Positions 15,186 through 29,640 of a stretch of DNA of 53,669 nt are shown in pieces. Made by a program: the position numbers and the translations under genes. The DNA comes from Enterocloster asparagiformis. GTDB taxonomy: Bacteria; Bacillota; Clostridia; Lachnospirales; Lachnospiraceae. The DNA is taken from contig JAGZSY010000037.1 of NCBI GenBank assembly GCA_018380885.1, forward strand, positions 1-53,669, written 5' to 3'. The notes beneath the pieces are model-generated. The model made no database searches and was not told the origin of the DNA. It saw nothing but the letters and a program-made list of their open reading frames with translations. Positions within the stretch are counted from its first letter, which is position 1, and each line of letters starts with the position of its first letter.

Positions 15186-15223
15186 GGGCCGCCCTGATCC
15201 CCCATCAGGACGGCCCCTTTTTT
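15186..15223 (+). terminator. Terminator of zwf, overlapping the 3' end of the convergent gene
   Basis: GGGCCGCCCTGAT and ATCAGGACGGCCC form a 13-bp stem with one mismatch, followed by CTTTTTT. The last codons of the Sel1-type gene lie inside it. Confidence 0.85.
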
Positions 15224-15660
15224 CCAGGTCCGTTTAATACCTTTTCCATCCGCCCGGTCCAGTAGGCCCCCCGCTCCCGGTCCAGCGGCACCGGCCCTCT
15301 GCCGGTGCGGCACCAGTGGGCCAGAAGCCCGATGCGATCCGCAAAGTCCTCCCGGCTGAAATTGCGGTAATATGTCTGGAATATGCCGTCGCAGTCCGCT
15401 CCCGCCTCCAGAACGCCCTGCTCCTCGGCCTTGTTGAACCAGTAGAGCGCCGCAAGATCATTTTTCTCCAGGCCGCGGCCCTGGCTGTACAAAGCGCCCA
15501 GCTGGTACGCTGCGGCCCCGGAATCCGTCCGGTCCAGAATTTCCCGGTAGATTTGGGCCGCAAGGGCGTAATCGGACCGCTCCAGCGCTGTCCGCGCCGT
15601 GGAGAGCCTTGTCTCAACCTGGGCCGGGGAGAGGCAGTCCTCTTTTTCTATTGTGCTCAT
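15205..15660 (-). CDS. Sel1-repeat protein, last gene of the signalling/RiPP-like operon
   Basis: 151 residues. A helical N-terminal region (LSPAQVETRLSTARTALE) leads into TPR/Sel1-like helices; the clearest unit is AAYQLGALYSQGRGLEKNDLAALYWFNKAEEQG near residues 54-86, with the Sel1 pattern of small residues and Gly. No signal peptide or catalytic motif. Sel1 proteins act as protein-binding scaffolds. Two similar repeats are in the C-terminal part of the M48-like protein at 18845, linking both ends of the operon. It starts 79 bp after the small membrane protein gene. Specific role unknown. Confidence 0.7.
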   Translation of the reverse strand: MSTIEKEDCLSPAQVETRLSTARTALERSDYALAAQIYREILDRTDSGAAAYQLGALYSQGRGLEKNDLAALYWFNKAEEQGVLEAGADCDGIFQTYYRNFSREDFADRIGLLAHWCRTGRGPVPLDRERGAYWTGRMEKVLNGPGKKGPS

Positions 15661-15739
15661 ACGCGTTTCCTCCCTGTTGTTGATGAGCCCAGTTTATCAT
15701 ATTCCCTTTTTAGAAAATAAAACCTTTTTCCTCATCTTC

Positions 15740-15976
15740 TCAGTTGCGGTCAAACAGTATTCCCAGAAACACGCAGACAATTCCGATCCCTATAAACAGC
15801 CACGCGCTTTCCTGGTCAAGAAATGTATGGTACAGGAATCCCCATTTGCCGTCTGGGTCGTTCAATACATTTAAAATGATATGGTGGACCGTCTCAAAAA
15901 CTCCCATCAAAAGAAAAACTGCGCCTAACCTGCCGACCGCACCCCAAAAACCGGACTTGCCGTCGCTTTCTTTCAT
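15740..15976 (-). CDS. Small two-helix membrane protein, 78 aa
   Basis: Two hydrophobic helices (about residues 13-36 and 57-75, the second FIGIGIVCVFLGILF) separated by a polar loop with charged residues (NDPDGKWG). A GGAGG site 8 bases before ATG and position 39 bp after the PrsW-FHA gene support it as real. No family recognised. Possible roles are a membrane partner of the intramembrane protease or an immunity or export helper for the Cys peptide; both are inference from context. Confidence 0.65.
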   Translation of the reverse strand: MKESDGKSGFWGAVGRLGAVFLLMGVFETVHHIILNVLNDPDGKWGFLYHTFLDQESAWLFIGIGIVCVFLGILFDRN

Positions 15977-16015
15977 CCTTATGTTCCTCCAATCGATATA
16001 GCATCACCATTTTCG

Positions 16016-17359
16016 CTAATTTCCCATAATCTTAAAGGATTCCTGCTGCGATCCCAGGCAGAACACGTCCCCGGGCTTCAGCAGATAACCCTTTTTCGGC
16101 GGCAGCTGCGCGCCGTTTAAGTAGGTCCCATAGGCGGAGCCCAGATCGGCAAGATACATATGTCCGTTCTGCACCAGAATCTCGCAGTGCTTTTCGTTGA
16201 TCCCCGCGGTGCCCATGGGAAAGCAGAGATTGCAACCGGAGTCCGTCCCAAAAAACACCTGCGCGTTTTTCACTCCAAACACGCGGTTGGCGAAGATTCC
16301 GGTGACCCCCGCCAGCTTCATGTTGGGCAGCAGATTATCCCTGGGATTGGAGGCCGCGGCCGAGGCCAGCTGCGCAAAGCATTTTCTGAGCACATAGCGG
16401 GCGCTGAACCATAATATAGCGATTGTCAGGACCAGCTTTAGGATGAAAAAGGCGTTGTAGGCTTCCGTCCTGGTATTCCAGATAAAATGCGCGATAAAGG
16501 AGGCTGCGAAGGTGATATAAAAATCCCGGTTGCGCAGGCTGCCCTTTACCAGCTTATTGCCGTTCATGTGCAGCGCAACCGCCGCTGCATAGGGCGCGCA
16601 GAATAGCGTGTGGCCGCAAACCGCAAAGGCTCCCCTGAGCGCCTCGTTGGTCACAATGGCCTCAAAGGCCTCATCCCAGATATAAAAGCCGCCCACCTGC
16701 ACCCAGTCCACCGTATTGTAAGCGTACTGGGCCGACTCAAAACCGCCGAAGCCGGCCCCCACTGCGGCGCCGATCACCAGGCCCGTGATGCCGTACACCT
16801 TCCGGTTTTTATTTGAACCGAACAATTTGATCAGGATTAAAACCGCGATCAGTTTTCCCGGCTCCTCGCTGAACGGAGCCAATACCGCTCCACCCTGGGG
16901 CGCCACGATATCCACGATCAGCGTGGCCAGAATGGACAGCATGCCTCCCACCATAAAATATCCCAGCAGCTGGTAGATCGAGATATTTCTGGGAACGTTC
17001 AGCTCCCAGAAAAATATCATCAGCGCGAAGGGCACGACCAGGGGCGGGATCACCACAAACAGCAGATTCAGCGCGGCGATATGGGAAATCCCAAACAGCT
17101 GGACGCAGACATACACCACCGCAAAAATGAGCGCTGAAATGACGAGCCCGCCCAGCAGAATCCTGCCGAACAGCCATGGCTTCCTCCATTTCTGCAGCAT
17201 ATTGGACTCCGTGGCAGAATCCATGGAGGTGCCCGCGATCATAGCGTATTCCATGTCCTGCCTGCTGTTTTTTTTCAAGCTGTCGGAAAATATGTCCGAC
17301 CAGGTTATCTTGTGGGGCTCGCGCAAAATTTTATCGTATATACTCGTGTATGCCATCAT
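16016..17359 (-). CDS. PrsW-like intramembrane metalloprotease fused to a C-terminal FHA domain
   Basis: 447 residues. After a 60-residue cytoplasmic segment come about eight membrane helices (residues 65-320) with the PrsW-family motifs: SEEPGK (Glu165, Glu166, Lys169), GAGFGGFESAQYA (201-213), a conserved His250 (AVCGHTLF) and His291 (IAHFIWNT). Residues about 350-447 form an FHA domain with GTDSG, NEKHCEI and the terminal LADLGSAYGTYLNG. PrsW cleaves membrane-bound regulators such as anti-sigma factors; FHA domains bind phosphothreonine. The fusion suggests a protease recruited or switched by the two kinases of this operon. It follows the 40-aa peptide gene by 49 bp and could process or export it. 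The catalytic residues look intact. Confidence 0.85.
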   Translation of the reverse strand: MMAYTSIYDKILREPHKITWSDIFSDSLKKNSRQDMEYAMIAGTSMDSATESNMLQKWRKPWLFGRILLGGLVISALIFAVVYVCVQLFGISHIAALNLLFVVIPPLVVPFALMIFFWELNVPRNISIYQLLGYFMVGGMLSILATLIVDIVAPQGGAVLAPFSEEPGKLIAVLILIKLFGSNKNRKVYGITGLVIGAAVGAGFGGFESAQYAYNTVDWVQVGGFYIWDEAFEAIVTNEALRGAFAVCGHTLFCAPYAAAVALHMNGNKLVKGSLRNRDFYITFAASFIAHFIWNTRTEAYNAFFILKLVLTIAILWFSARYVLRKCFAQLASAAASNPRDNLLPNMKLAGVTGIFANRVFGVKNAQVFFGTDSGCNLCFPMGTAGINEKHCEILVQNGHMYLADLGSAYGTYLNGAQLPPKKGYLLKPGDVFCLGSQQESFKIMGN

Positions 17360-17408
17360 GCCATCCTCCCTGAAACGGCTTTTCGCTTCTGGTATTTTGT
17401 GTTACAGA

Positions 17409-17531
17409 TCAGTTCACCCGGAAATTGACTACCAGCGGACCGCAGCTGTGGAACATGCCGCAGGCGCAGGTCTTGCTGTAAGAATCCGCCTTCTGGGCTT
17501 TCAGTTTTTTAGGCGCCTTATATTTTTTCAT
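17409..17531 (-). CDS. Candidate RiPP precursor peptide, 40 aa
   Basis: A small gene with near-perfect AGGAGGT 7 bases before its ATG, overlapping the last 14 bases of the radical SAM gene. The first 20 residues are Lys-rich and leader-like (MKKYKAPKKLKAQK). The second half has three cysteines at 22, 24 and 30 in CACGMFHSCGP and ends LVVNFRVN. The layout (short peptide next to a PqqD/SPASM radical SAM enzyme, basic leader, Cys-containing C-terminal core) is that of sactipeptide or ranthipeptide-type precursors, whose Cys sulfur is joined to a backbone or side-chain carbon. It does not match the SCIFF six-Cys pattern. No Gly-Gly cleavage site. Whether it is modified and secreted is inference. 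Confidence 0.75.
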   Translation of the reverse strand: MKKYKAPKKLKAQKADSYSKTCACGMFHSCGPLVVNFRVN

Positions 17532-18861
17532 CCCGCTCACCTCCTTTCACATGATTCAGATAAACCTCGTGGCTAGCGCGGGAAATCATGCAGGTGTCGG
17601 AGCACGGTTTCAGACAGCCGTTTTCGCGCAGGGCGTTTCCCATGCAGATTCCGCACCAGTTTTTATCCGCGCAGCCATCGCAGTTCCCGCTGATCTGATG
17701 GAATCTCATACCTCTGATTTCCCGCAGCGCCTCCGAGGTATCCCATACGGTTTTGATGCCGTCCCGCCCCACAGTTCCCAGCACAACGGGGTTTGCGTTG
17801 CAGGCGTAAATTTCCCCGTAGGGGTTCACCGACAGCGCGTCCATCCCGCTTGCGCACACATAGTCCCCCCGCTCCCCTGCCATGGGGTCCGTGCCGTGAA
17901 GGCCGTACCGGTATTCCAGCTCCAGGATATGCCTGTATTTCTCGGGATCCATCAGACGGTAGGCTCCTGCCGGCTTTCCCGAGTGGGTGGGCATCACCGT
18001 CAGGCTCGACATCACCCGGATATTCAGGCGCTTTCCCAGCTTCAGCAGCTCCTCATAGCCCTCGTAATTCTGCTTCATCACCACGGTTTTGATAAACGTG
18101 TCGAACCCGGCGCATTTGCACATCATCATGGCCCTGAGGCTTCTCTCAAAGGACCCGGGCACCCCGGTAATCCCGTCATGGCTCTCTGCGTTTCCGCCGT
18201 AAAAGCTGAAGGAAACGCTGTTGGGCTTCAGCTCAATGAGCCGGTCCATCATCCCGTCGTCCAGGTGCAGACCGTTGGTGTAAATGTCCACCATGAGTCC
18301 GATCTGCTTCGCATAACCCGCGATCTCGAAAAAGTCCCTGTGCAGGGTGGGCTCTCCGCCTGTCAGCAGGACGCCCATGCAGCCCATACCGCGAATCTCG
18401 TCCAGCAGCTTCCTGTAGTCCGCAAAAGAAAGCTCCCTGGCCTCGCTCTCCGGGTCGTCAATATAGCAGTGGACACAGCGCTCGTTGCACCGGTAGGTCA
18501 GCTCCAGGCAGACCGTGAGCAGACGGCGCTCATCGTAGCACACCTGCCGGATCAGGTCCCGGACGTTCTCCTGGTCCTCCCGGGGCTTGTCCCCGTCCCC
18601 CGCCACAATGCGGGCCTGTTCCAGCTCCGCCAAAAACTGCTTCATGTCGGAGCGCAGCGTTTCCATGGAATCCGTCTCGTAGATGCCGGACAGGTAGTCC
18701 GCCGCCTGTTCCGGCGTGCAGCCGTCCCCCGCTTTCACGGCCTCCAGCACGTCAAAGCAAATCTCGTTGTACAAATAATCCATCCTGTCCCGGACATCGC
18801 GGACATAGGTGTATTCGCCGTAACGGCCGTAGTAGATGTCGGGATTAATTCTGTATTTCAT
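17518..18861 (-). CDS. Radical SAM/SPASM peptide maturase with PqqD-like N-terminus
   Basis: 447 residues. Residues 1-90 resemble a PqqD-type peptide recognition domain (NPDIYYGRYGEYTYVRDV, then helices). The radical SAM core binds its 4Fe-4S cluster through Cys125, Cys129 and Cys132 (CNERCVHC) and has GGEP at 168-171. The SPASM region has nine further cysteines (336, 354, 394, 397, 403, 406, 416, 420, 424), enough for two auxiliary clusters, as in sactisynthases and ranthipeptide enzymes. It should install a radical-derived crosslink in a peptide, most likely the 40-aa product encoded next to it. Its start overlaps the upstream M48-like gene by 17 bases. Confidence 0.92.
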   Translation of the reverse strand: MKYRINPDIYYGRYGEYTYVRDVRDRMDYLYNEICFDVLEAVKAGDGCTPEQAADYLSGIYETDSMETLRSDMKQFLAELEQARIVAGDGDKPREDQENVRDLIRQVCYDERRLLTVCLELTYRCNERCVHCYIDDPESEARELSFADYRKLLDEIRGMGCMGVLLTGGEPTLHRDFFEIAGYAKQIGLMVDIYTNGLHLDDGMMDRLIELKPNSVSFSFYGGNAESHDGITGVPGSFERSLRAMMMCKCAGFDTFIKTVVMKQNYEGYEELLKLGKRLNIRVMSSLTVMPTHSGKPAGAYRLMDPEKYRHILELEYRYGLHGTDPMAGERGDYVCASGMDALSVNPYGEIYACNANPVVLGTVGRDGIKTVWDTSEALREIRGMRFHQISGNCDGCADKNWCGICMGNALRENGCLKPCSDTCMISRASHEVYLNHVKGGERDEKI

Positions 18862-20026
18862 TGTGCTCCCTCCTGCGCCCTATGATTTCGGACTGCCGGA
18901 TCAGACGGCGCCCAAGGTTCTCATCTTTCGGTAAAATGGTCCCCGCCCCTTTGAGCAGCAGTCCGCCCAGGGTGGACAAGGCCCCCTCGCAGCCTTTCCC
19001 GGCGGCCTTCTTTAACAGGTCGATGCCCGCCGGATCGTTTTTTTCAATCCCGTGCGCCCCGTTGATATAGCAGCGGGCCAAATAATCCTGGGCCGGGCCA
19101 TACTCGCAGCTCGCGGCGGCGCACAGCAGGATCATGGCACGCTCCTGGTTCTTGTGAAACAGCCCCGCGGATTCCTGGTAGAGACGTTTTCCCCTGTCGG
19201 CCGGGTTCAGAGCGCTTTTCCCGCCCCACGCGGCCGTCTCCCCCATCCCGCCATAGTACAGGGAGCGGCTGATCTGCCTGCACTGCGGGGAGCAGAGCCA
19301 TTCCCTGAGCTTCTCCATCCGCAGCCTGCCAAAGGGAACCGGTATGTCCTCCGCCAGAAGCTGGAACACCAGACGCTCCGCCTTTGACATGGTTTCCACC
19401 GTCCTGGGACGGCTCCCGTTTTTCCAGTCGTGCACCACCGACGATGCGCCCATGGATTTGCTCAGGTAGCCGAACGCCGCCTGGGCCTCCCCCGCGGCCA
19501 CGGCGGCGCCCCTGTCTGCCGTAAATTCCGCGTATTTGTGCCACTGGACCAGCAGGGCCTTGATCATCATCGCCGCCGCGTTCCCCACAAAGGGGACGCT
19601 TAAAAACAGCTCGTCCGCCAGGTTCCCCATGTTCAGGTATTTCACATGGCCGTTCTGAATATGGGAAATGGCGCTTCCGAACATGGCCGTCAGCTCCGGA
19701 TCAGACAGCGCTTCCAGGCAGATGCTGCTCACAACCACCGCGCACGTTCCGTCCGTTCCGTAAATCTTCGGGGCGAACTGGTGGGAAAGCTCCAGATACA
19801 GCGGAACGTCCTCCGTAAATTCCAGCCGCTTTGCCGCCAGCCGGTACAGGTAGTGAATCCTCGGTTCGGAAGCCCTGGTGATTTTAAAATTTCTGCCTTG
19901 GAGACGGGCAAAATCCGTGGCGTTGGAGTAGACCGTTTCAAACAGCTTTAAGACCGCCTGAAATTCTTTCCTTTTGACCAGCTCATGCAGCGCGGCTTTT
20001 TCTTTGGGATAACAATAATCAATCAT
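18845..20026 (-). CDS. Degenerate M48-like protein with C-terminal Sel1 repeats (paralogue A)
   Basis: 393 residues. The middle resembles the M48 peptidase core: ALSDPELTAMFGSAISHIQNGH (residues 106-127) aligns with the usual ELxxVLGHELGHIxxGH, but the zinc site HExxH is SAISH (118-122), so the first His and catalytic Glu are gone. The later AEFTADRGAA (166-175) keeps the Glu and ADR of the M48 third-ligand region. Two Sel1-type repeats follow (about 300-375). No signal peptide or membrane helix. It is probably a non-catalytic binding protein that could recognise the peptide or another protein. It overlaps paralogue B by 8 bases and the radical SAM gene by 17. Confidence 0.7.
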   Translation of the reverse strand: MIDYCYPKEKAALHELVKRKEFQAVLKLFETVYSNATDFARLQGRNFKITRASEPRIHYLYRLAAKRLEFTEDVPLYLELSHQFAPKIYGTDGTCAVVVSSICLEALSDPELTAMFGSAISHIQNGHVKYLNMGNLADELFLSVPFVGNAAAMMIKALLVQWHKYAEFTADRGAAVAAGEAQAAFGYLSKSMGASSVVHDWKNGSRPRTVETMSKAERLVFQLLAEDIPVPFGRLRMEKLREWLCSPQCRQISRSLYYGGMGETAAWGGKSALNPADRGKRLYQESAGLFHKNQERAMILLCAAASCEYGPAQDYLARCYINGAHGIEKNDPAGIDLLKKAAGKGCEGALSTLGGLLLKGAGTILPKDENLGRRLIRQSEIIGRRREHNEIQN

Positions 20027-20843
20027 CTGTTTTCCTCAGTTCCGTCCGGCCTGTCCTCTGCGCGAACTGTTCCAGTTCCTGATAGCGCAGCGGTAGCCAG
20101 CTCTGATCGGTGGTGGCTGAATTGTAAAAATTCACCAGGTTGTCCAGACCGTCGGCGTGGACGAAGCCCTCCATCTGCTCCCGGTACAAATCCCCCGGGG
20201 AGCCGAACCGGAAGCCGTCCAGCACATTTCCGGGAAGCCGCATCAAAAAAATACTTCTGATCGCCAGCGGGTAATCCCCGGTCAGGGCCAAAAACGCCCG
20301 GTCGCAGGTATACATCCTACAGCGCTTCCAATCGTTCAGCAGGCTTTCCAGGGCCGCCACCGCCGCTCTGGGCAGGCTCATCTGCTGTAACAGCGCGTTG
20401 AGCGACCAGATGAGCAGAAGCCCCCGATGGTGTCCCGCGCAGATCGCGGCCGCCTGTGCTCCCAGGCTGCCGGTGAGCATGGCATCTCCCTCCCCTCTCA
20501 GGGCCTTCAAGTAAAATGAAGAAACCAAAAGAAATGGCTTTCCGATCCCGCATATCTCAATGGTGCGGTTGTAGTCGTGAATGAGATAGATTGGCGGAAT
20601 CTCCGCGCAGCCCAACATCCTGCAGGCCCGCTCCAGGCAGCCGGTCACCTTCGGGGAACTCTCCCGGGTCAGCCGGATGCAGGATTCCTGGTACACATAG
20701 GTGTAGACGTCGTCAATCTTTTGATCCCGGAGCCAGCAGAACACCTTCTCCGTCACGGGATGGTTCATGATCTCCGAAATCAGCTTTTTATCCTTTTCAT
20801 GCTGATACAGCTCCGGCCGTATCGGGCGCTCTGCCGGCATCAT
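20019..20843 (-). CDS. Degenerate M48-like protein (paralogue B)
   Basis: 274 residues, of similar plan to its neighbours. An N-terminal helical part is followed by IPPIYLIHDYNRTIEICGIGKPFLLVSSFYLKAL, as in the M48 core strand. Next comes GSLGAQAAAICAGHHRG, where HExxH is replaced by AQAAA while the trailing GH remains, and then MYTCDRAFLALTGDYPLAI, matching the EFxADRxxLLAxGD helix with the zinc Glu changed to Met. All zinc ligands of the HExxH motif are lost, so peptidase activity is very unlikely. GGGAGGG precedes the ATG. Role unknown; see the findings on the three tandem pseudo-peptidases. Confidence 0.65.
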   Translation of the reverse strand: MMPAERPIRPELYQHEKDKKLISEIMNHPVTEKVFCWLRDQKIDDVYTYVYQESCIRLTRESSPKVTGCLERACRMLGCAEIPPIYLIHDYNRTIEICGIGKPFLLVSSFYLKALRGEGDAMLTGSLGAQAAAICAGHHRGLLLIWSLNALLQQMSLPRAAVAALESLLNDWKRCRMYTCDRAFLALTGDYPLAIRSIFLMRLPGNVLDGFRFGSPGDLYREQMEGFVHADGLDNLVNFYNSATTDQSWLPLRYQELEQFAQRTGRTELRKTDD

Positions 20844-20866
20844 ATGTTTTCCCTCCCATCCCGGAC

Positions 20867-21685
20867 TCAGCGGTATTTTTCAATCAGCCCGGGGTATTCC
20901 CGGGTATACCAGCCCAGAAGATCCTCCAACATCTCTTCCCCCGGCGCTTCGATATAGTTGGCTTTGATCCATTTGGCCGCCAAATCCGTCACCAGCGCGT
21001 TTTTGCGTCCGCCGTCCCCCGCCTCCTTCAGATACCGCCGGGCAAACGCGGCAGCCTGTTCATCTGTGGAAAACAGCTTCCGGCTCTCGCAGGGCGGCAG
21101 TCCCAGCTCGAAGAGGTGGCATCTGGCCGCGGCCGCAAAGGACTGGCAGGCCAGCAGCCCGCCCCGGTCCGACGTGGCGTCCGCAAAATGCAGATACCGC
21201 TTAAATTCCAGCTGGGGAAGCAGCAGTAGTTTGCTGGCCCCCATGTAAGACGCGGCCGTGGTCATTTTCACATGGCCTGCCAGGATCATGGTCACAGCGT
21301 TGCCGAGTATGTAGTAGAGCATGTCCTCGTCGTAGGATTGCAGCACATAATCCGCCATCACAATGTAGGTCTTGTCCGCGCTGCACGGACGCACCGTGTG
21401 GTCCATGGCGTGGTACAGGTAAATATCCGGCAGCGCCTCCTCCTTGTAGTCGAGTATGGCGCACACATGCTTCAGAATCCGGAACAGCCCGGGGGCCGCC
21501 TGCGGCTTTAGCTGGACGTACGTGCCCTCTGTTATGGTCTTGTAAAGCTTCAGATTGAGATCCCCGAAGGTTTTCACAAACTTTTTTCCCGCGGGCGAAT
21601 TGATCAGGGAATCCCTGGCGGCCAATTCCTGCGCGTGGATAAACTCCGATACCTGCAGCCCGCGAAACACGATTCTTTGCTTCAT
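20867..21685 (-). CDS. Degenerate M48-like protein (paralogue C)
   Basis: 272 residues from ATG 21685; the frame is open to a TTG at 21697 overlapping the stop of the PP2C gene, so translation is probably coupled. The M48-like landmarks are LPDIYLYHAMDHTVRPCSADKTYIVMADYVLQSY, then DMLYYILGNAVTMILAGHVKM, where the HExxH site reads NAVTM, and HFADATSDRGGLLACQ, which keeps SDRGGLLAC. It is the first of three such genes after the PP2C and the most regular in its second half. No signal peptide. As in A and B, the GH and DRG elements persist while zinc ligands are gone, suggesting the fold is kept for binding. Confidence 0.65.
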   Translation of the reverse strand: MKQRIVFRGLQVSEFIHAQELAARDSLINSPAGKKFVKTFGDLNLKLYKTITEGTYVQLKPQAAPGLFRILKHVCAILDYKEEALPDIYLYHAMDHTVRPCSADKTYIVMADYVLQSYDEDMLYYILGNAVTMILAGHVKMTTAASYMGASKLLLLPQLEFKRYLHFADATSDRGGLLACQSFAAAARCHLFELGLPPCESRKLFSTDEQAAAFARRYLKEAGDGGRKNALVTDLAAKWIKANYIEAPGEEMLEDLLGWYTREYPGLIEKYR

Positions 21686-21690
21686 CACAC

Positions 21691-23376
21691 TCACCAATAC
21701 TGATTCCAGCCCAGCGGCTTTGTCTTGATCCCGCAGTCCGGGCAGAACCGGTAAGAATTCTTGCGGGTGATTTCATACTTTCTCCCACATCTGGGACAAT
21801 AGCACATCTGCGGTTCCTCCATGGTGTCCCCAAAAAACTTGGCCACCGTATCCAGCGTCTTTTTGGTGGACACATAAAACACGTCGATTACGCTGCCCTG
21901 GTCCTTCCCGCTCTGCCGCTCTTCATGCCCCGGCCTGCGCTCCGGCTTTTGTTCCTTTTTCCGCTCCGCCTGCCGCTGCGCCTTGCGCTCCGCTTTCGGG
22001 CTCAACGGCGGGTTTAACGGCGGTTCCAGCGGCGCATTGGGGCCTGTCTGATCTCCGTAGGGTCTGCGGCCCGCCTGATCCGGCGATTTTCTGCGTCCTG
22101 TGGATTCTCCCGGGGTTCTGTAGCCTGCGGATTCACCCGGATTCCTGTGACCTGCGGATTCTCCCGAGGTTCTGCGGCCTGCAGATTCCGACGGGGTTCC
22201 GTAGCCTGACCGTTCCGATGGGGTTCTGCGGCCTATGGATTCCGATGGTTTTCCGTAGCCTGACGGCTCCGACAGGTTTCTGCGGCCCATAGACTCCGAC
22301 GGGTTCCTGTGTCCCCCCGGCTCCCCCGGAGTTCCGCGCCCTGCGGATTCCGACGGCTTTCTGCGGCCCGACGGCTCTCCGGAGTACAGTTTCTTTTGGA
22401 TTTCGCGGCGGTATTCGTCCTCCTCTTCCTTCCAATCCTCCACTGAGAACGCCGGGTGGGGCGCGGCTTTGAGCCTGCGGGTATTAACGGCCGCCAACAC
22501 CGTGATGTCGTCCGTAACCTTGCTTCGGTACTCCGGCTGGTCCAGCACTTGCTTCATATGTTCAAAGGCCGCCTGCGCGGCATTTCCGCTCTCCGTTTCC
22601 TCCTGTCCGATCATGCAGTAGAGCGCATTTTCAAGAAACGGGTAAAACACACGGTTATTGCGCTTCTGATTGGCTACATACTGGTCCAGAACTCCGTCCG
22701 TGGACATGAGGAAGCCCACCACCGGCTCCGATACCCGGCCGAACTGCCACAGCTGGTCCGGCGAACCCGCCTGCAGCGGATTGACGGAGTTGGCCTCCTC
22801 GCCTTTGTGGCGCGTGGTGACCAGCTGATACGTCCCATTCTCCAGCTGCGCGACGATGCCGTCGTCACCTACATGGCCGTAATACAGCATACTGCCGTCG
22901 TAAATCGCGGCCGTCAGGGTGGAATAGAAGTTGGGCACCGGCTGTATCAGATGATCCGCCAGGTCCTCCACCGCGGCCTTGCTCTCCGAAAACGCTTTTC
23001 TGAGAATACCGCCGACGATTTTCGCCTCAATCCCGGTAAAACTCTTTGTCTGAAGCTCCGCCTTCAATTCCGTTTCCAGCACATCCAGGACAGTGGTCAC
23101 AACCGTGTAAGAGCCCCAATGGGACAGCGCACAGCTTCCCACGCCGTCCGAAATCGCGCAGATCAGCAAATCGGCCTCCGGAATAAAGCGGAAATCGCTG
23201 TAATCCTGACACGGCTGATTGCGTTCAATATGGGAGCTTCCCTGCAAGGACATTCCATATACGCTGATATCCTTAATCGCCCCGTAGTGCTTTTCAGGTA
23301 ACGGCGGCACTCCGAACCCATCCTTTGAATCCGCCGTGTTTTCTTCCTGTAACCCTTCGCTATGATCAAACTTCAT
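21691..23376 (-). CDS. PP2C-family phosphatase with tandem-repeat linker and C-terminal zinc ribbon
   Basis: 561 residues from ATG 23376 (AGGAG 5 bases upstream). Residues about 30-290 form a PP2C domain: CQDYSDF, the metal-site loop ISDGVGSCALSHWG, GHVGDDGIVAQLENGTYQLV, MSTDGVLDQY and VTDDITVLAAV supply the Asp residues for Mn/Mg binding. A linker of ten 9-residue Gly/Arg/Ser/Pro/Glu repeats follows, then a Lys/Arg-rich stretch. The last 30 residues form a zinc ribbon (CPRCGRKYEIT ... FCPDCG). It should remove phosphate from Ser/Thr targets of the adjacent kinases. It lies 14 bp after the kinase gene. The first part closely resembles the PP2C at 25464, an evident paralogue. Confidence 0.88.
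   Translation of the reverse strand: MKFDHSEGLQEENTADSKDGFGVPPLPEKHYGAIKDISVYGMSLQGSSHIERNQPCQDYSDFRFIPEADLLICAISDGVGSCALSHWGSYTVVTTVLDVLETELKAELQTKSFTGIEAKIVGGILRKAFSESKAAVEDLADHLIQPVPNFYSTLTAAIYDGSMLYYGHVGDDGIVAQLENGTYQLVTTRHKGEEANSVNPLQAGSPDQLWQFGRVSEPVVGFLMSTDGVLDQYVANQKRNNRVFYPFLENALYCMIGQEETESGNAAQAAFEHMKQVLDQPEYRSKVTDDITVLAAVNTRRLKAAPHPAFSVEDWKEEEDEYRREIQKKLYSGEPSGRRKPSESAGRGTPGEPGGHRNPSESMGRRNLSEPSGYGKPSESIGRRTPSERSGYGTPSESAGRRTSGESAGHRNPGESAGYRTPGESTGRRKSPDQAGRRPYGDQTGPNAPLEPPLNPPLSPKAERKAQRQAERKKEQKPERRPGHEERQSGKDQGSVIDVFYVSTKKTLDTVAKFFGDTMEEPQMCYCPRCGRKYEITRKNSYRFCPDCGIKTKPLGWNQYW
22094..22363. repeat. 27-bp tandem repeat, ten copies, inside the PP2C gene
   Basis: Ten in-frame units of 27 bp, each coding for about ES-(A/M/I/S)-G-(R/H/Y)-R-x-P-(S/G). 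The units differ at scattered bases, so the array is not very recent, but the constant length allows slippage without frameshift. It encodes a flexible, charged linker between phosphatase and zinc ribbon. Confidence 0.85.
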
Positions 23377-23390
23377 AAACACTCCTTACC

Positions 23391-24653
23391 TTAAAAGAAC
23401 AGGCGCATCCACCACGGACGTTTGCGGTTGGCGCCGGACGCCGCAGTCTGCGCCACAGCCGCCTGTTGATTGGAACTGCCTGATTTGACTGAACTGCCGG
23501 TATTTCCTGAACCGCCTGATTTTCCTGAGCTTCCCGGGGCCGCCGTGCCTTTGGCCTTTGACTGTTCCGCGCTCAGCTGCGCCAGGAACCGCTCGTAGCG
23601 CTGTTTCGCCCTGCAAAACTCGCACCCTCTGGCTTTGAGGTAAAAATGCTCCGGGTTGGTCTGGCACTGAACCAGGTCTCCGCCCTGCCTGGCAGCTCTC
23701 TGGTAGAACATGTACAGAAGCTGCCGCCACATATCCGCGGACACCCTCTGGGGGCCGGACGACGCCGCGTTCACCGCGTTGTACCCGAACACCTGCCGGA
23801 AGGCCGTCTGTATCTTCGCCGGGAGCATCGTGATCTGGGGAGCCCCCGGCGGAATCGTGATCCCGTTAATGGCCTTTACCCAGGGGCAGTTTCCATTGAC
23901 AATATTCATCTCCAGCTTGTTTTCCGGCAGGGATTGCTTGACGCTGTCCACCACCTTTACATTAAACGGGTGGGCGTTGCCCATTAACAGCTGGAAAATG
24001 TGCACCGCCAGGGCGAATTCATCGGTATGCTTCGTAAATTTGGCCTTGCGCAGATCCCTCCCCTGCAGCTCCGGTGCCAGGAACTCCGATATTCCCACCG
24101 TACATTCAAAGCGTTCCCCCGTTTCAGGGTCCGTGATGTCAAAGCTGTCCACGTCCAGGATCGTGATGCTCCCGTCGCTGTGAATCATGATATTGTTGGA
24201 ATTCATATCGCCCACTATGTATCCGTGCTGATGCACATAGTTCACAGCCCACGCCAGGTGATAGGCCACCGCGATGGAATTGGTCCAGTTATAATTTGGA
24301 AATACCTCATGGCAGTCGTGGGTGTGGGATTCATTGTTCCTGCACAATACGTAAATGGGGTAGGTGTCTTTTACAAAGGGCATCACGTACCCCATAAAGG
24401 CGCCGTTTTCATACACCACGTCCAGGGGCCAGGCAATCAGCAGGTGCACCCCGTCCGCATACGGGTTTAAGGGATGGCGCACCATGCATTTTAATTTTTT
24501 CTCCGTCCAGGCATCCGGATGATGGTAAACCTTTACAACCACGGCGGGATTGTCGGTGACAAACACGGTCCCCTCCCCGCCCTTTGCTTTTTCAGACTTA
24601 AGCTGGTATTTTGTTCCTTTGAGTCCAATCAGTGTTGATCCTGCACCGGCCAT
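23391..24653 (-). CDS. TerY-P-type protein kinase with C-terminal Cys motif
   Basis: 420 residues. Kinase elements: glycine loop KGGEGTVF (24-31), Lys41 in VVVKVY, catalytic loop YIVGDMNSNN (Asp149, Asn154; the usual HRD is VGD), metal loop DVDSF (Asp167; DVD in place of DFG) and LAPEL near 192-196. A helical segment follows, then a Cys cluster (CQTNPEHFYLKARGCEFC) typical of kinases in TerY-P triads, and a Ser/Gly-rich tail with a basic end. It presumably phosphorylates Ser/Thr in partners such as the VWA or FHA proteins. GGAGGAACACA precedes ATG. It is paralogous to the kinase at 27171 but lacks its membrane anchor. Confidence 0.85.
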   Translation of the reverse strand: MAGAGSTLIGLKGTKYQLKSEKAKGGEGTVFVTDNPAVVVKVYHHPDAWTEKKLKCMVRHPLNPYADGVHLLIAWPLDVVYENGAFMGYVMPFVKDTYPIYVLCRNNESHTHDCHEVFPNYNWTNSIAVAYHLAWAVNYVHQHGYIVGDMNSNNIMIHSDGSITILDVDSFDITDPETGERFECTVGISEFLAPELQGRDLRKAKFTKHTDEFALAVHIFQLLMGNAHPFNVKVVDSVKQSLPENKLEMNIVNGNCPWVKAINGITIPPGAPQITMLPAKIQTAFRQVFGYNAVNAASSGPQRVSADMWRQLLYMFYQRAARQGGDLVQCQTNPEHFYLKARGCEFCRAKQRYERFLAQLSAEQSKAKGTAAPGSSGKSGGSGNTGSSVKSGSSNQQAAVAQTAASGANRKRPWWMRLFF

Positions 24654-24682
24654 TGTGTTCCTCCATCATCCGCACATTTTCA

Positions 24683-25378
24683 TCAGATTAATTCGATCGT
24701 CATAGGCGTGGGCTCCAGCGTTACGTTTCCAAGGCTGGGGTCGGAGTTGCTGATCACGCTCATGCTGCTGGACAGCCAGACGAAAGCCTCTTTAAACTGG
24801 CTTGCGCTGGCCTTGAGCACAGCGCCGGCTCCCCCTTTGGTGTAGGATTTCAGATGGTTGTAGTTCGCCCCGGAGCCGATTCCCATGGGGAAGAAATTGA
24901 CCTTTTTATCGTTTATGGCCTGCTGCAGCCTGTTTTTCGCCTCGCTCTCCATGTTCTTGTCCGTAGGCTCCCCGTCCGTCAACAGGAACATCCACGGGCG
25001 GTAATAGGAGCAGCCCAGCTGCCTGTACAGCTGTTTTCTGTCCTCGATGGCGTCCAGGCCCGCTATAATGGCCTCGTTCATGCTGGTCAGCCCGCCGGCG
25101 GACAGCGACGGGGCGCTGTAGTTGGAGGCCGGGCAGAACGGAACCACCGTTTCCACCGTGCTGCTAAACGAAATGACGCATACATCGGCCACGCCTCTGG
25201 CATGCTCGTCCTGATCCAGGGCATTTCCAAATTCTAACAGTCCCTGGTTCAGTTCATTGATGGAAGCTCCCGACATGGAGCCTGAGGTATCCACCAAAAG
25301 CACACATGCGATGTGACGCTCGCCCACGTTGTCCACATAATTTCCCATTTCCTCAAATCCTGATAACATTTCGCTCAT
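24683..25378 (-). CDS. VWA-domain protein, TerY-like
   Basis: 231 residues consisting almost entirely of one von Willebrand A domain. The metal-ion adhesion site has Asp30-Thr-Ser-Gly-Ser34 (LLVDTSGSM), a conserved Thr region (SAGGLTSMNEAI) and FLLTDGEPTD. VWA domains bind partner proteins through a bound divalent metal. In TerY-P triads (VWA + PP2C + kinase, a set described by comparative genomics in tellurite and stress loci) the VWA protein is thought to be the hub. Here it lies between the two kinase/phosphatase pairs. No TerB, TerC or TerD genes are near, so tellurite resistance is not implied. Confidence 0.88.
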   Translation of the reverse strand: MSEMLSGFEEMGNYVDNVGERHIACVLLVDTSGSMSGASINELNQGLLEFGNALDQDEHARGVADVCVISFSSTVETVVPFCPASNYSAPSLSAGGLTSMNEAIIAGLDAIEDRKQLYRQLGCSYYRPWMFLLTDGEPTDKNMESEAKNRLQQAINDKKVNFFPMGIGSGANYNHLKSYTKGGAGAVLKASASQFKEAFVWLSSSMSVISNSDPSLGNVTLEPTPMTIELI

Positions 25379-25463
25379 CTCTGTACTCTCCTTTGTATTC
25401 TTTATTAAACAGGGCCTCCTCTGCCGTCCGTAACGGCAGGCTCCTCCCCCGTCTGTCGTATGG

Positions 25464-27149
25464 TTAGTTCTTCTCTGTTTCTGGCGAGTCCGCCTTCATC
25501 CCCTCAGAAACGCTGGCCCGCCCTTCCGGGCTGTTCCCCGGTTCGGCTTCCCGCCCGGCGGCGACCTGGGCCGCGGGTGATTCCGCCTCATTCGCCTTTA
25601 TTCCGTCTGCCTTCGGTTCATTCGCCTGCGCCGCGGCCGGTACTGCCGCATTGGTCTGCGCCCCGGCTGCTGCTTTATTTGCTTCCGCTCCGGCTGGTTC
25701 TGCCGCATTCGCATTTGCCCCGGCTGCCTTCGCCTTATTTGCCTCAGTCCCGGCTGGTTCTACCGCGTTTGCCTCGGCCCCGGCAGCCTCCGTCTTATTT
25801 GCCTCTGCCCCGGCCGGTTCTACCGCATTGGCCTGCGCCCCGGCTGCCTCCTCCGCGTTCGCTTCCGCCCCGGCTTCCTCCGCCTCTTTCGCCTCTCCCC
25901 CGGCCTCCTCGGCCCCATTCGCTTCCGTCCCAGCTGCCCCCGGCGCTGTGCTCCTGCCGGTAAAAGACGCAACCGCTCCGACAATAACCGCGCCGGCCAG
26001 AAGTCCGGCCAGAAGCCACAAAATATTCGAACGCCTGCCCTTGGGTGTCCCAACCCCTTTTTCAAGCTCGGGGTTCTCAACCGTTTTTTCAGGCATTGGT
26101 TCTCCATACCGATGTTCCGCCTCAGCCGTTTTTTCAGGAATAGGCGGAACGTCCCCGACGTCCGCGACGTTTCCTTCCAGGCGCGCCCTGACCGCTTTTC
26201 CGTGCTCCTCGTAAACGGACTTCCAGATATTTACATTAAATCTGGGTTCCCTGGAATCCCGCATAAGCTGCGGAGAAACCACCGCCACCACCGTCAGGTC
26301 GTCCGTCACCTGCTTGCGGTACTCCGGGCTGTTCAGAAAATTCTTGTAGTATTCCAGCGCGTTCTCTGCGGCCCTGGCGTCGTTGGAATCGGACAGCTTG
26401 TCCATGGCCGGCTTCATAAACGGATAATAAATCCCCTGATTGTAATTGACTTTGTAATAGTCCTCGAACACTGGCACAAAGGCGTCCAAAACGCCGTCCG
26501 TGGCCATGACAAACCCGGCCGCCGGATTTTTGCTCCCCGTAATCTGCCATTTTGCGGGGCCGCTCTGGAGGGGATAAACGCTGCTGGCCTCCTCCCCCTT
26601 CAGCCGTTTCGTCACCATTTTTACCATGCCGCCCTGTTCCTGCACCACCACGCCGTCGTCCCCACAGTGGCAGCAGTAAACGTGAATCCCGTCGTAAAGG
26701 GCCACCGTCAGCGTGGACTGGAAGTTAAATACGGCCTGCTGCACCTCGTCCGCCTTCTGCTCCACCTGATCCTGGGCGGTGTGAAAGGCGTTGATCAGTA
26801 TTTCCTGAATCTCTCCCAGGTTCGTCAGTTCATACCGGGCGCGCCCGCTTTTTTCCGCCACGGCCTTTTCAATAAAGTCCAATGCGGCCGTCACCGCAAA
26901 ATAAGCGCCCCAGTGGGACAGCGCGCAGCTTCCCACTCCGTCCGCAATACCCGCGATCAGAATCTGCGCCTTCTCCAGCCAGCGGATATCGCTGTAATCC
27001 TGGCAGGGAATATCGCCCCTGGTCATATGGGATGCCCCCTGTAAGGAAACGGCAAATGCGTGAACCGCCTCATTTTGTATGACCGTTCCTTCCTGCTTCG
27101 GCGGATATTCTGATCGAACATCCAATGGTTTATTGTCTTGTGGCTTCAT
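25464..27149 (-). CDS. PP2C-family phosphatase with membrane helix and Ala-rich repeat tail
   Basis: 561 residues from ATG 27149 (GGGAGG upstream). The PP2C domain covers about residues 25-290 with CQDYSDIRW, IADGVGSCALSHWG, CGDDGVVVQEQGG, MATDGVLDAF and VTDDLTVVAVV, parallel to the PP2C at 21691. A single membrane helix follows (WLLAGLLAGAVIVGAVASF, about 375-395). The rest is a run of about eleven 10-residue Ala/Glu/Asn repeats and an acidic tail, presumably outside the membrane. The phosphatase would thus be held at the membrane with a long extended outer tail. It lies between the membrane-anchored kinase and the VWA gene and probably opposes that kinase. Confidence 0.88.
   Translation of the reverse strand: MKPQDNKPLDVRSEYPPKQEGTVIQNEAVHAFAVSLQGASHMTRGDIPCQDYSDIRWLEKAQILIAGIADGVGSCALSHWGAYFAVTAALDFIEKAVAEKSGRARYELTNLGEIQEILINAFHTAQDQVEQKADEVQQAVFNFQSTLTVALYDGIHVYCCHCGDDGVVVQEQGGMVKMVTKRLKGEEASSVYPLQSGPAKWQITGSKNPAAGFVMATDGVLDAFVPVFEDYYKVNYNQGIYYPFMKPAMDKLSDSNDARAAENALEYYKNFLNSPEYRKQVTDDLTVVAVVSPQLMRDSREPRFNVNIWKSVYEEHGKAVRARLEGNVADVGDVPPIPEKTAEAEHRYGEPMPEKTVENPELEKGVGTPKGRRSNILWLLAGLLAGAVIVGAVASFTGRSTAPGAAGTEANGAEEAGGEAKEAEEAGAEANAEEAAGAQANAVEPAGAEANKTEAAGAEANAVEPAGTEANKAKAAGANANAAEPAGAEANKAAAGAQTNAAVPAAAQANEPKADGIKANEAESPAAQVAAGREAEPGNSPEGRASVSEGMKADSPETEKN
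25570..25932. repeat. 30-bp tandem repeat inside the membrane PP2C gene
   Basis: About eleven to twelve 30-bp units coding for variants of ANAVEPAGAE, with one 9-residue unit. Edges are approximate. Codon use is skewed to GCC/GCG/GAG. The array makes the extended tail after the membrane helix. Confidence 0.8.
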
Positions 27150-27170
27150 CGCAACCTCCCTCAATCAAGT

Positions 27171-28988
27171 TTAATTGGAAACCCATACCTCATTCTCGCA
27201 CAACAGCTCCTGATTCTCATCGTAGATGTAACAGCAGACCGTGCCGCCGGGCCGGTTTAGACCTGCGCTGACCCAACCGGTGCCGTTGTTCGAATAAGAC
27301 GAATTGAAGGGTTTTAATTCCCCTTCCTCGCCCTTATAACATACCTGATAATATAAATCCGTCTTAGACCCGGGCGTGCCCCCGGACACCCTGATGTGCC
27401 AATATACCCTGGAGCCGGGCGCAAAGGTCGACAGGTTCGTGGTCTTATCGTCTTTATCCGTATTCACAGCTAAAATTTCCACATTCCACCGGTACAGGGA
27501 ATCATAGATGCGCTGGCAGTCGGAATACACGTTTCGCAATTCCTTCAAATACTGATAGGTCTGCTTGTCCCCACAATCCAGATGGCTCTTAATATAGCCG
27601 TATTTTGCCTCCTTCAGAAGTTCCTCGCTGTCTTTATAATCCTCCAGATCCTTAAACGCCACGATCGCCTCAATATAGTCCCCGCGGTTCATGGATCTCA
27701 CGGCCGACTCATATTGGTTCTTTTTGGACGTCATATCGGCAAACCAGATTCCAAAAATAAGCGCCAGGATTCCGGCGAACAGAAGGAACCAATGGAAACC
27801 ATGGGACTTTTTAGGCAGCGCCGGCTTTGGGGCCGGAGCAGCCGGGGCCGGCTTATGGGCCGGAGCAACCGACGCAGCCGCTTCCTTCTTGGCCGCGGTA
27901 TGGTTGTCGTTCCGGGCGTTTCTCTGATTCTGCGCCATCCAGGCCTCGTACCGTTCTTTCGCCAGACACAGCTCGCAGGGCTGATCCGCTCTCCGGTAGT
28001 GCTCGGGATTTTTACTGCAGGGCAGAATCAGGGTTCCCACGCCGCTGTACAGCGCCCGCAAATGCTCATACCACATCTGCGCGCTGGTCCGCCTGGAGCT
28101 TTTGCTGATGCTGTCAAGGGCGGTGTATCCGAATGTACGTTTAAAATCCTCCTGCAGCAGCGGCGGAAGCAGACTGAGCCTGGGAGCGCCCACCGGCAGC
28201 GCCACGTCGTTGATCTCCCGCACAAAGGGGCACACCCCGTTTACAATGTTCTGGTCGATCTGGTTCACGTCCGAGGACTGCTTATAGGTCGTCATGGACC
28301 TGGCGAGAAACGGGTGATAGTGAAACAGAATGATAAAAATGTGAATGGCCAGCGAAAAATCGTCGGTCTGCTTCGTAAACCTGCTGGATTCGTCCTTCAG
28401 GCTCTTCCTGTGCTGAAGCTCCGGCGCCAGATAATCCGGAATCCCGACCCCGCATTTAAAGTGCTCTCCCGTGTCCGTATCCGTGATGTCAAAGCTGTCC
28501 ACATCCAGAATACTGGCCAGCCCATTTGGGTGGACTATGATATTTCCAGGATTCATATCCCCGATCACGCAATCGCAGTCGTGGATAATGGCCACGAGAT
28601 GGGCCAGGTTCATGGCCACGCACAGGGATTTCGTCCAGTTGTAGCTGTTGAAAAAATCGCGGGTGGATTTATCATGATACAAGGTAAATATGGGTTTCCC
28701 CTCCTCGATCAGCGGCATCGCGTAGCCCACAAAGCTTCCGTTCTGATACAAAATGTCCTTGGGCCATGCGATCAGGTACGTCCCGCTTTCCGCCTTGGTT
28801 GCGATTTTCCTGCGCACCATGCAGCGAAGCTTCCGCTCCTGCACCGCGGTGGGATTGTGATAGATTTTGGCGGCAATCCAGGGCTGATCCGTCAGATAGA
28901 CCGTGCCCTCCCCGCCGGCCCCCTTTCGCTCTTTGATCCGGTATGCCTGTCCCTGTATACCGTATACAATTTCTCCTGTCTGTACCAT
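27171..28988 (-). CDS. Membrane-anchored TerY-P-type protein kinase, first gene of the operon
   Basis: 605 residues from ATG 28988, which has AGAGGGGGA upstream; an in-frame GTG at 29045 lies too near the likely transcription start. The kinase domain has GAGGEGTVY (23-31), Lys41 in AAKIY, VIGDMNPGN (Asp144, Asn149), DVDSF (Asp162) and LAPEL. A Cys motif follows (CSKNPEHYRRADQPCELC), then an Ala/Pro linker, one membrane helix (WFLLFAGILALIFGIWF), a short helical repeat region (SMNRGDYIEAIVAFKDLEDYKDS) and a C-terminal beta-rich domain that should be outside. The layout is that of a receptor-like kinase, with an outer sensor and inner kinase. It is presumably the signal-input end of the system. 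Confidence 0.87.
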   Translation of the reverse strand: MVQTGEIVYGIQGQAYRIKERKGAGGEGTVYLTDQPWIAAKIYHNPTAVQERKLRCMVRRKIATKAESGTYLIAWPKDILYQNGSFVGYAMPLIEEGKPIFTLYHDKSTRDFFNSYNWTKSLCVAMNLAHLVAIIHDCDCVIGDMNPGNIIVHPNGLASILDVDSFDITDTDTGEHFKCGVGIPDYLAPELQHRKSLKDESSRFTKQTDDFSLAIHIFIILFHYHPFLARSMTTYKQSSDVNQIDQNIVNGVCPFVREINDVALPVGAPRLSLLPPLLQEDFKRTFGYTALDSISKSSRRTSAQMWYEHLRALYSGVGTLILPCSKNPEHYRRADQPCELCLAKERYEAWMAQNQRNARNDNHTAAKKEAAASVAPAHKPAPAAPAPKPALPKKSHGFHWFLLFAGILALIFGIWFADMTSKKNQYESAVRSMNRGDYIEAIVAFKDLEDYKDSEELLKEAKYGYIKSHLDCGDKQTYQYLKELRNVYSDCQRIYDSLYRWNVEILAVNTDKDDKTTNLSTFAPGSRVYWHIRVSGGTPGSKTDLYYQVCYKGEEGELKPFNSSYSNNGTGWVSAGLNRPGGTVCCYIYDENQELLCENEVWVSN

Positions 28989-29056
28989 ATAATCCCCCTC
29001 TTTCCCAGCCGTTTTCCCGCTTTCAGCGTCTTCAAGTGTAGTCACATTTATCTATG

Positions 29057-29085
29057 ATTATATCGTTTTATCGTTTTATTATCAA
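29057..29085 (-). promoter_or_regulatory. Promoter of the 13-gene operon
   Basis: Minus-strand TTGATA (29085-29080), 17-bp spacer, perfect TATAAT (29062-29057); predicted start near 29050, giving a 60-base leader before ATG 28988. Two CGTTTTA motifs lie within the spacer. Confidence 0.75.
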
Positions 29086-29316: not shown

Positions 29317-29640
29317 ATGAACGAATTGAATCCCCTGGACCGGATACGGGAACTGTGCGCAGAGCGCAAATGGTCTTATTACCAGCTCTCCAAAGCCTCC
29401 GGCATCCCCTACTCCACCTTAAATACAATGATGAACAAAGAGAATATGCCGTCCCTTCCCACGCTCCAGAAGCTGTGCCAGGGGTTCGGCATATCCGTTG
29501 CGGAATTTTTTGAGCCCGGCAGGAGCCAGCAGGGGCTGACCCCCAGCCAGGCCCTGTGCCTGTCCCTCTTCACCTCCCTCTCCCAGGAGGAGCAACAGCT
29601 GGCCCTGGCTTACTTAAAGGGGTTAAGCCGCACATTATAA
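29317..29640 (+). CDS. XRE-family helix-turn-helix regulator
   Basis: 107 residues from ATG 29317 (GAGG upstream; the frame is open to 29278 without a good site). The N-terminal lambda-repressor-type domain is clear: RIRELCAERKWSYYQLSKASGIPYSTLNTMMNKENMPSLPTLQKLCQGFGISVAEFF (residues about 8-64). A short C-terminal helix region (LSQEEQQLALAYLKGL) may dimerise. It is transcribed away from the 13-gene operon and shares its control region, so it probably controls that operon and itself through the CGTTTT repeats. There is no ligand or peptidase domain, so the signal is not evident. Confidence 0.88.
   Translation: MNELNPLDRIRELCAERKWSYYQLSKASGIPYSTLNTMMNKENMPSLPTLQKLCQGFGISVAEFFEPGRSQQGLTPSQALCLSLFTSLSQEEQQLALAYLKGLSRTL

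Follow-up and report, generated by a model that had tools for sequence, protein, structure and literature searches.

The window analysed here is a stretch of 53,669 nucleotides (positions 1 to 53,669) of contig JAGZSY010000037.1 of Enterocloster asparagiformis (assembly GCA_018380885.1), and its minus strand carries a 13-gene operon in which TerY-P-type signalling genes, three M48-like proteins, a radical SAM/SPASM enzyme, an adjacent 40-residue cysteine peptide and a PrsW-FHA membrane protein stand together (Table 1). An earlier sequence-only reading of this DNA had described 13 minus-strand genes between 28988 and 15205 that follow one good promoter and either overlap or lie no more than about 85 bp apart, and had joined them in one integrated pathway. 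Recomputing the open reading frames (ORFs), the gaps and the site bears out this layout, and domain searches and motifs agree with the identities given to the modules: TerY-P, three M48-like proteins without HExxH, radical SAM/SPASM, the 40-residue cysteine peptide and PrsW-FHA. What looks new is less the lineage-specific combination of 13 genes than a core that recurs in other genomes, consisting of a radical SAM enzyme, a peptide with two Cys-Gly pairs and an M48-like trio.

Table 1 Features of the operon and its upstream region (window coordinates)
Feature	Position	Strand	Characteristics
Divergent XRE-type regulator	29317..29640	+	start 29317 or 29278; type assigned by eye
Promoter-like site TTGATA-17-TATAAT	29057..29085	-	between the divergent XRE gene and the operon, amid repeated AAAACG/AACGTT words
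K1, TerY-P-type kinase	27171..28988	-	Pfam Pkinase; zinc-ribbon motif C-x5-H..CxxC; C-terminal extension
PP2C phosphatase 1 (PP2C1)	25464..27149	-	PP2C_2, PP2C motifs; one membrane-span-like segment; Ala/Glu repeat tail
TerY-like VWA protein	24683..25378	-	Pfam VWA; metal ion-dependent adhesion site DxSxS; 94% identical in [Clostridium] asparagiforme
K2, TerY-P-type kinase	23391..24653	-	Pfam Pkinase; zinc-ribbon motif as in K1
PP2C phosphatase 2 (PP2C2)	21691..23376	-	PP2C_2; repeat linker; C-terminal double CxxC
M48-like protein A (M48A)	20867..21685	-	without HExxH; conserved GH and SDRGGLLAC
M48-like protein B (M48B)	20019..20843	-	without HExxH
M48-like protein C with Sel1 repeats (M48C)	18845..20026	-	SAISH at the position of relatives' HELAH
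Radical SAM/SPASM enzyme	17518..18861	-	radical SAM and SPASM domains; PqqD-like N-terminal region
40-residue precursor-like peptide	17409..17531	-	leader-like start MKKYKAPKKL; core-like TCACGMFHSCGPLV; strong Shine-Dalgarno sequence
PrsW-type membrane protein fused to FHA	16016..17359	-	Pfam PrsW and FHA
78-residue membrane protein	15740..15976	-	small hydrophobic protein
Sel1-repeat protein	15205..15660	-	Sel1 domain

Layout, conservation and signalling genes

The genes are read in the order K1, PP2C1, VWA, K2, PP2C2, M48A, M48B, M48C, radical SAM, peptide, PrsW-FHA, small membrane protein and Sel1, with recomputed intergenic distances of -17 to +85 bp and a recognisable ribosome-binding site at nearly all of them, that of M48A being weak. 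Start codons and gene calls come from scripts and are heuristic, and where Pfam made no call for a neighbouring gene, its type was assigned by eye. The promoter-like site (29085..29057) agrees with the consensus at 11 of 12 positions and is the best among 13 such sites in the region, a number that is uninformative by itself, with shuffled sequence giving 9.3 (standard deviation 3.0). A K1 start at 28988 is more likely than one at the GTG codon at 29045, because the latter lies too close to the -10 box. The three terminator-like sites on the minus strand are all intragenic, with none in an intergenic gap.

All 13 slots are kept in [Clostridium] asparagiforme, in identical order and at the identical chromosomal place, as are both promoter hexamers and the repeated AAAACG and AACGTT words. 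Ten of the operon proteins are 67-94% identical over aligned positions, the peptide is 100% identical, and synonymous divergence of the operon genes amounts to 0.60-1.12. Some slots vary more strongly: PP2C1 has 561 residues in the window and 445 in [C.] asparagiforme, the Sel1 protein 151 and 267, and the slot of the 78-residue protein is filled by a hydrophobic protein of 61 residues that matches in position and hydrophobicity only, with no detectable sequence similarity. The view of a single tight operon is upheld. The counterpart of the XRE gene by neighbour position is 91% identical.

The published defining parts, namely VWA, PP2C and a kinase with a zinc-ribbon motif, support a TerY-P identity for the signalling genes. 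Both PP2C proteins have the DGxG, TDG and DDxT motifs, and the zinc-ribbon motif C-x5-H..CxxC is found in K1, K2 and all five kinases of three stand-alone TerY-P triad loci of the family. The operon departs from such triads (VWA, PP2C and a kinase with a C-terminal zinc ribbon) in doubling kinase and phosphatase and in the membrane-span-like segments of K1 and PP2C1; in K1, one clear hydrophobic segment (396-422) is accompanied by a marginal one within the kinase domain. It also links a peptide-modifying module rather than the restriction-type systems treated in passages of PMC11090510. Both PP2C genes have repeat-coding linkers, at 25619-25938 (PP2C1) and 22089-22324 (PP2C2) of the window.

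Protease motifs of PrsW are EExxK, FxxxE and HxxxD. In the PrsW-FHA protein (Pfam PrsW 46 bits, cut-off 23.5) the first two are present, as EEPGK and FGGFE, and HFIWN (HxxxN) replaces the third.

The putative maturase, its peptide and the M48-like trio

The radical SAM enzyme has both the CxxxCxxC motif and the SPASM cysteines. Its PqqD match of 20.6 bits lies below the cut-off of 23.4, and part of its listed relatives are labelled PqqD. None of the best 25 of 69 listed NCBIfam enzyme models reaches its cut-off for this protein, the best ones, all sub-threshold, describing the heme b synthase AhbD, NirJ2 and mycofactocin MftC; PqqE ranks below them.

The 40-residue peptide gene differs between the two species by 10 synonymous codons, no non-synonymous one and a different stop codon, and on this pattern the peptide is under strong constraint. 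Within the gene, 24 successive codons are identical at the DNA level, the longest such run elsewhere being 16 (2079 codons, six other operon genes); this hints at either nucleotide-level constraint or recent exchange. The window peptide could not be given a known family name, with zero matches in NCBIfam and Pfam, and a database search with the peptide alone returned one near-identical cluster.

Relatives emerge beside related radical SAM genes. There, small ORFs begin with a stretch rich in lysine, which in most of them includes Y-x-x-P, and have near the end two Cys-Gly pairs (double-CG), which are spaced 2-10 residues apart and often followed by x-L-V. A genome scan with a 24-row radical SAM alignment yielded 79 loci (L001-L079), of which 24 have double-CG ORFs, 25 in all, close to the radical SAM gene, including 21 of the 22 loci L001-L022, 23 of the 30 loci L001-L030 and 15 of the 16 loci with M48-like genes (M48-type loci). 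Elsewhere the pattern was seen 34 times (1.23 Mb, 9716 small ORFs on the two strands), and it was fixed after the peptides had been inspected, so that these counts are descriptive. L017 is the M48-type locus without a match, and the other small cysteine ORFs of L023-L025, L027, L029 and L030 are counted as misses. Two sets of nine peptide relatives gave weak sub-threshold matches only, for example to the SSH-motif peptide of radical SAM-dependent ribosomally synthesized and post-translationally modified peptides (RaS-RiPPs) for L010 and L006. L015, L017 and L022 have a tandem pair of radical SAM genes next to one M48 trio; in L015 the double-CG peptide is doubled too, as if one trio were served by two pairs of maturase and peptide.

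Gene anatomy thus supports the enzyme and the peptide as a candidate modified-peptide system. The radical SAM and SPASM domains, the short adjacent cysteine peptide and, at its sub-threshold score, the PqqD-like region are shared with RaS-RiPPs, sactipeptides and ranthipeptides, among whose characterised kin are PqqE and mycofactocin MftC. Unlike such systems, the operon has a peptide that fits no NCBIfam or Pfam family, three M48-like partners and no exporter.

The M48-like proteins A and B have no Pfam match, and type C has a sub-threshold M48 match of 18.6 bits (cut-off 20.3). Their assignment to M48 is based on VIA-align over Foldseek's top 256 and 143 chains, on profile comparison (A against C 99.6%, B against C 99.3%) and on the Pfam matches of type C. 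Foldseek alone gave no significant match for the M48A model (best E 0.68, BepA second), and a sequence search of the type C profile against solved structures brought up Sel1 proteins for the most part, with CAAX proteases appearing only as weak matches. Profile comparison, together with structural alignment of the AlphaFold models of A and B, predicts that all three share one M48-like fold, and they are paralogues of each other. In fold, A and B resemble the M48 metallopeptidases BepA, HtpX and Ste24/ZMPSTE24 and the related M56 protein BlaR1, with which GH and DR landmarks are also shared; the difference lies in HExxH, which is missing from all three window copies and from 38 of the 40 M48-like ORFs neighbouring radical SAM genes. 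These 40 were recovered where 16 loci could hold 48, the type C gene of L001 being among those missed, and the two intact ones are both of type C. HExxH-bearing type C copies are found in L009, L018, L099 and L100. The trio has mostly lost its catalytic residues.

Modules apart and exchangeable partners

Of the integrated pathway that had been proposed, the tight conserved operon and the names of its modules stand, and the obligate unit does not: in gene-neighbourhood comparison the modules were found apart in every direction tested, an outcome that the earlier reading had itself named as counting against it. We therefore reject the operon as one obligate pathway, with TerY-P, PrsW-FHA, the M48 trio and radical SAM plus M48 each occurring separately. 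Within the fetched flanks, which reach up to 10 kb from the radical SAM gene, M48-like genes are present at 16 of the loci L001-L030 and at none of the 49 loci L031-L079, with L020 counted as non-M48 since its one protein of the M48 cluster was undetected by tblastn at 1e-10. Radical SAM and M48-like genes without TerY-P or kinases are seen in 15 loci (5 to 21 kb fetched), 14 of them with the peptide, and among all 16 M48-type loci TerY-P or PrsW-FHA parts occur in L001 only. Apart from L001, 11 of the 15 M48-type loci carry an AAA+ ATPase of one cluster; in several of these its gene has the M48 trio on one side and the radical SAM gene on the other, with small membrane proteins alongside. A NACHT gene lies nearby in L004, and an Hsp70 gene in L003, which also carries AAA+.

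TerY-P triads also stand alone. Among 394 genomes of the family, a K2 relative was found in [C.] asparagiforme and three others, and the triads of these three have no radical SAM or M48 gene within 18 to 20 kb. Similarly, PrsW-FHA occurs without TerY-P or the radical SAM/M48 core in a cluster at 4.92 Mb of [C.] asparagiforme, where the PrsW part is 36% identical; this cluster resembles the operon in PrsW-FHA and, by eye, in kinases, PP2C and VWA-FHA proteins, and differs in that no radical SAM, peptide or M48-like gene was seen there. The M48 trio is found without a radical SAM gene within 20 kb in two genomes (L099 and, over the part of its neighbourhood that was read, L100), and L101 and L102 have single M48 genes and no trio. 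By eye, the L099 trio lies near P-loop GTPase-like, VWA and zinc-ribbon genes.

The tree of the radical SAM enzymes groups the pair formed by the window and [C.] asparagiforme first with L018/L002 (98/92) and then with L003 (100/98), and these three loci carry the AAA+ gene. Because the pair nests with AAA+-type loci, TerY-P is probably a later partner of the core. No AAA+ protein of the L018 type was found in the [C.] asparagiforme genome at E <= 1e-20, and no relative of the window VWA protein at E <= 1e-8 in five of six genomes of other M48-type loci.

The operon is rare and patchy. Radical SAM relatives were detected in one of 397 genomes of the family at E <= 1e-80 and in one of 17 of the genus at E <= 1e-50, and M48A relatives at E <= 1e-15 in four of 391 genomes of the class and two of 397 of the family; each count includes [C.] asparagiforme, and one genome in each M48A count has a single M48 gene only. 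Five radical SAM clusters of full length, at 67-97% identity, are in the protein database, and carriers are therefore probably more numerous than the named genomes suggest.

Interpretations of the composite

We regard it as an even call that three portable modules make up the operon as a composite, in which the peptide of the core would stay intracellular and serve the trio as its ligand, and TerY-P and PrsW-FHA would be exchangeable signalling parts gained in this lineage. The PqqD-like region of the enzyme would bind the Y-x-x-P-type start of the peptide, and the enzyme would then modify the double Cys-Gly region. The product is taken to be intracellular because a motif scan of the 1 kb around the radical SAM gene detected an ABC transporter gene on its strand in none of the 16 M48-type loci, against three of 14 others; the scan needs both ABC motifs in one protein and overlooked at least one case, the ABC transporter-like gene of L019. 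Once modified and retained, the peptide may bind the M48-like trio, which would act as a heteromeric binding scaffold after mostly losing its protease activity. The TerY-P unit (K1, K2, two PP2C proteins and the VWA adaptor) could set the phosphorylation of the trio-peptide complex or of its target, and the FHA domain of the PrsW protein could read this state at the membrane. In most related loci the partner is an AAA+ ATPase in place of TerY-P. That the modified peptide is an intracellular ligand of a mostly dead trio, together forming a plug-in wired to TerY-P here and to AAA+, or in some loci Hsp70 or NACHT, elsewhere, is a tentative idea that we hold to be rather doubtful.

Several points weigh against this picture. 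The full composite is known from just two species, which are sisters, short contigs carry several of the M48-type loci (L014 = 5 kb), so that missing partners may be unseen, and partner exclusivity is judged from few, partly incomplete genomes. Genome G006 has a VWA relative elsewhere in the genome, and in L009 a different VWA gene adjoins the radical SAM gene, with no AAA+ of the shared cluster. On the radical SAM tree the M48 label needs six changes, at least five of them forced (shuffled labels 13.9), and the M48 link was therefore gained or lost several times. Among the 12 type C copies that belong to radical SAM loci, two are catalytically intact, so proteolysis may matter in some members, and the C copies of the two trios without radical SAM also keep intact catalytic residues. 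An exporter unlinked to the locus is compatible with the absence of a linked one. Binding of the peptide by the trio is suggested only by their co-occurrence. Chemistry, complex formation and signal flow are steps that we infer, as is a role in stress or conflict, which is drawn from the company of TerY-P and the other partners and forms the weakest step.

A secreted modified peptide, either a bacteriocin or a signal, trimmed by PrsW or another protease and sensed or released under the control of TerY-P, is an unlikely alternative that draws on the usual anatomy of such peptides, a radical SAM enzyme with a PqqD-like region beside a short cysteine peptide, and on the two of three protease motifs in PrsW. 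It also fits the Selenomonadales loci L010, L011, L013, L016 and L019, in which a double-CG peptide (near-identical in L010, L013 and L016) accompanies radical SAM and no M48 genes were found: an ABC transporter-like gene lies just downstream, within 1 kb, in L010 (Pfam-confirmed), L011 and L016, and a gene from that protein cluster is also present in L019, so that these loci are possibly a secreted branch of the peptide family. The operon, however, has no exporter gene, the M48-type loci show none on the same strand near the radical SAM gene in the motif scan, and its peptide is unchanged while the other operon proteins differ by 6-33% between the species, unlike a fast-evolving bacteriocin. 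Peptide secretion, maturation by PrsW and a toxin role find no support. We consider it less likely still that the operon is an anti-phage or other conflict system of TerY-P type with the modified peptide or PrsW-FHA as effector. Passages of PMC11090510 link TerY-P with restriction-type systems and TerY-P-like modules with defence, the partners of the M48 core include a NACHT protein (L004) and IetA-like AAA+ proteins, and a rare, patchy distribution would suit such a role. Against this, domain searches find no nuclease or other recognisable effector in the operon, and its flanks are syntenic chromosome. PADLOC, run on ten operon proteins (those other than the peptide, the small membrane protein and the Sel1 protein), returned no recognisable system set, its matches being to kinases, pVip (viperin, for the radical SAM enzyme) and, weakly, TerY (VWA protein, E 0.0055). 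A defence assignment from PADLOC was dropped, as the kinase, viperin, AAA+ and UvrD matches may be generic.

The probability falls further for a peptide-derived cofactor or redox factor in the manner of pyrroloquinoline quinone or mycofactocin, with the trio as its processing protease akin to a heteromeric protease with inactive subunits. The sub-threshold enzyme models named above and the four HExxH-bearing type C copies would agree with it, but the loss of HExxH in the window and in most neighbouring ORFs would not, and no recurring dehydrogenase or oxidoreductase gene was noticed among the neighbours read, which was not a systematic search. Least probable, in our judgement, is that independent cassettes have merely come to share a promoter. 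TerY-P triads, PrsW-FHA and M48 trios do each occur without the other parts nearby, but such juxtaposition sits poorly with 13 slots kept in order despite strong divergence, and with the overlaps and tight gaps.

If the plug-in idea is true, the peptide-receptor unit would be a new use of a modified peptide inside a stress- or conflict-sensing machine. Should the composite prove correct, it would add an apparently unnamed peptide family, which is spread over several families of Clostridia and Selenomonadales, and a protein trio whose evolutionary course is clear, from proteases to binders. We know of no targets of TerY-P, which would gain a small, testable set of candidate substrates. The cultured strain [C.] asparagiforme DSM 15981 has the whole operon and makes it testable. 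No description of the core was found in the literature, a search of open-licence papers by which absence is not proven.

A mobile or phage origin of the operon is unsupported. Synteny with [C.] asparagiforme extends over the flanks on either side, no tRNA gene was detected in the window by ARAGORN, and a scan of viral contigs with the M48A profile gave no relatives. Plasmid records match the radical SAM enzyme in 461 cases and the VWA protein in 2327 of 72,556, all below 60% identity, the 15 listed VWA matches being labelled VWA domain-containing or not at all. Another gene arrangement was noted in L009, where macro-domain and VWA proteins (L009:8108-9871) lie directly upstream of the radical SAM, peptide and M48 locus. 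Further out in the window, the flank at 6638-10808 matches two successive stretches of [C.] asparagiforme (~5912.0-5916.2 and 5916.3-5920.2 kb), a segmental duplication in that genome.

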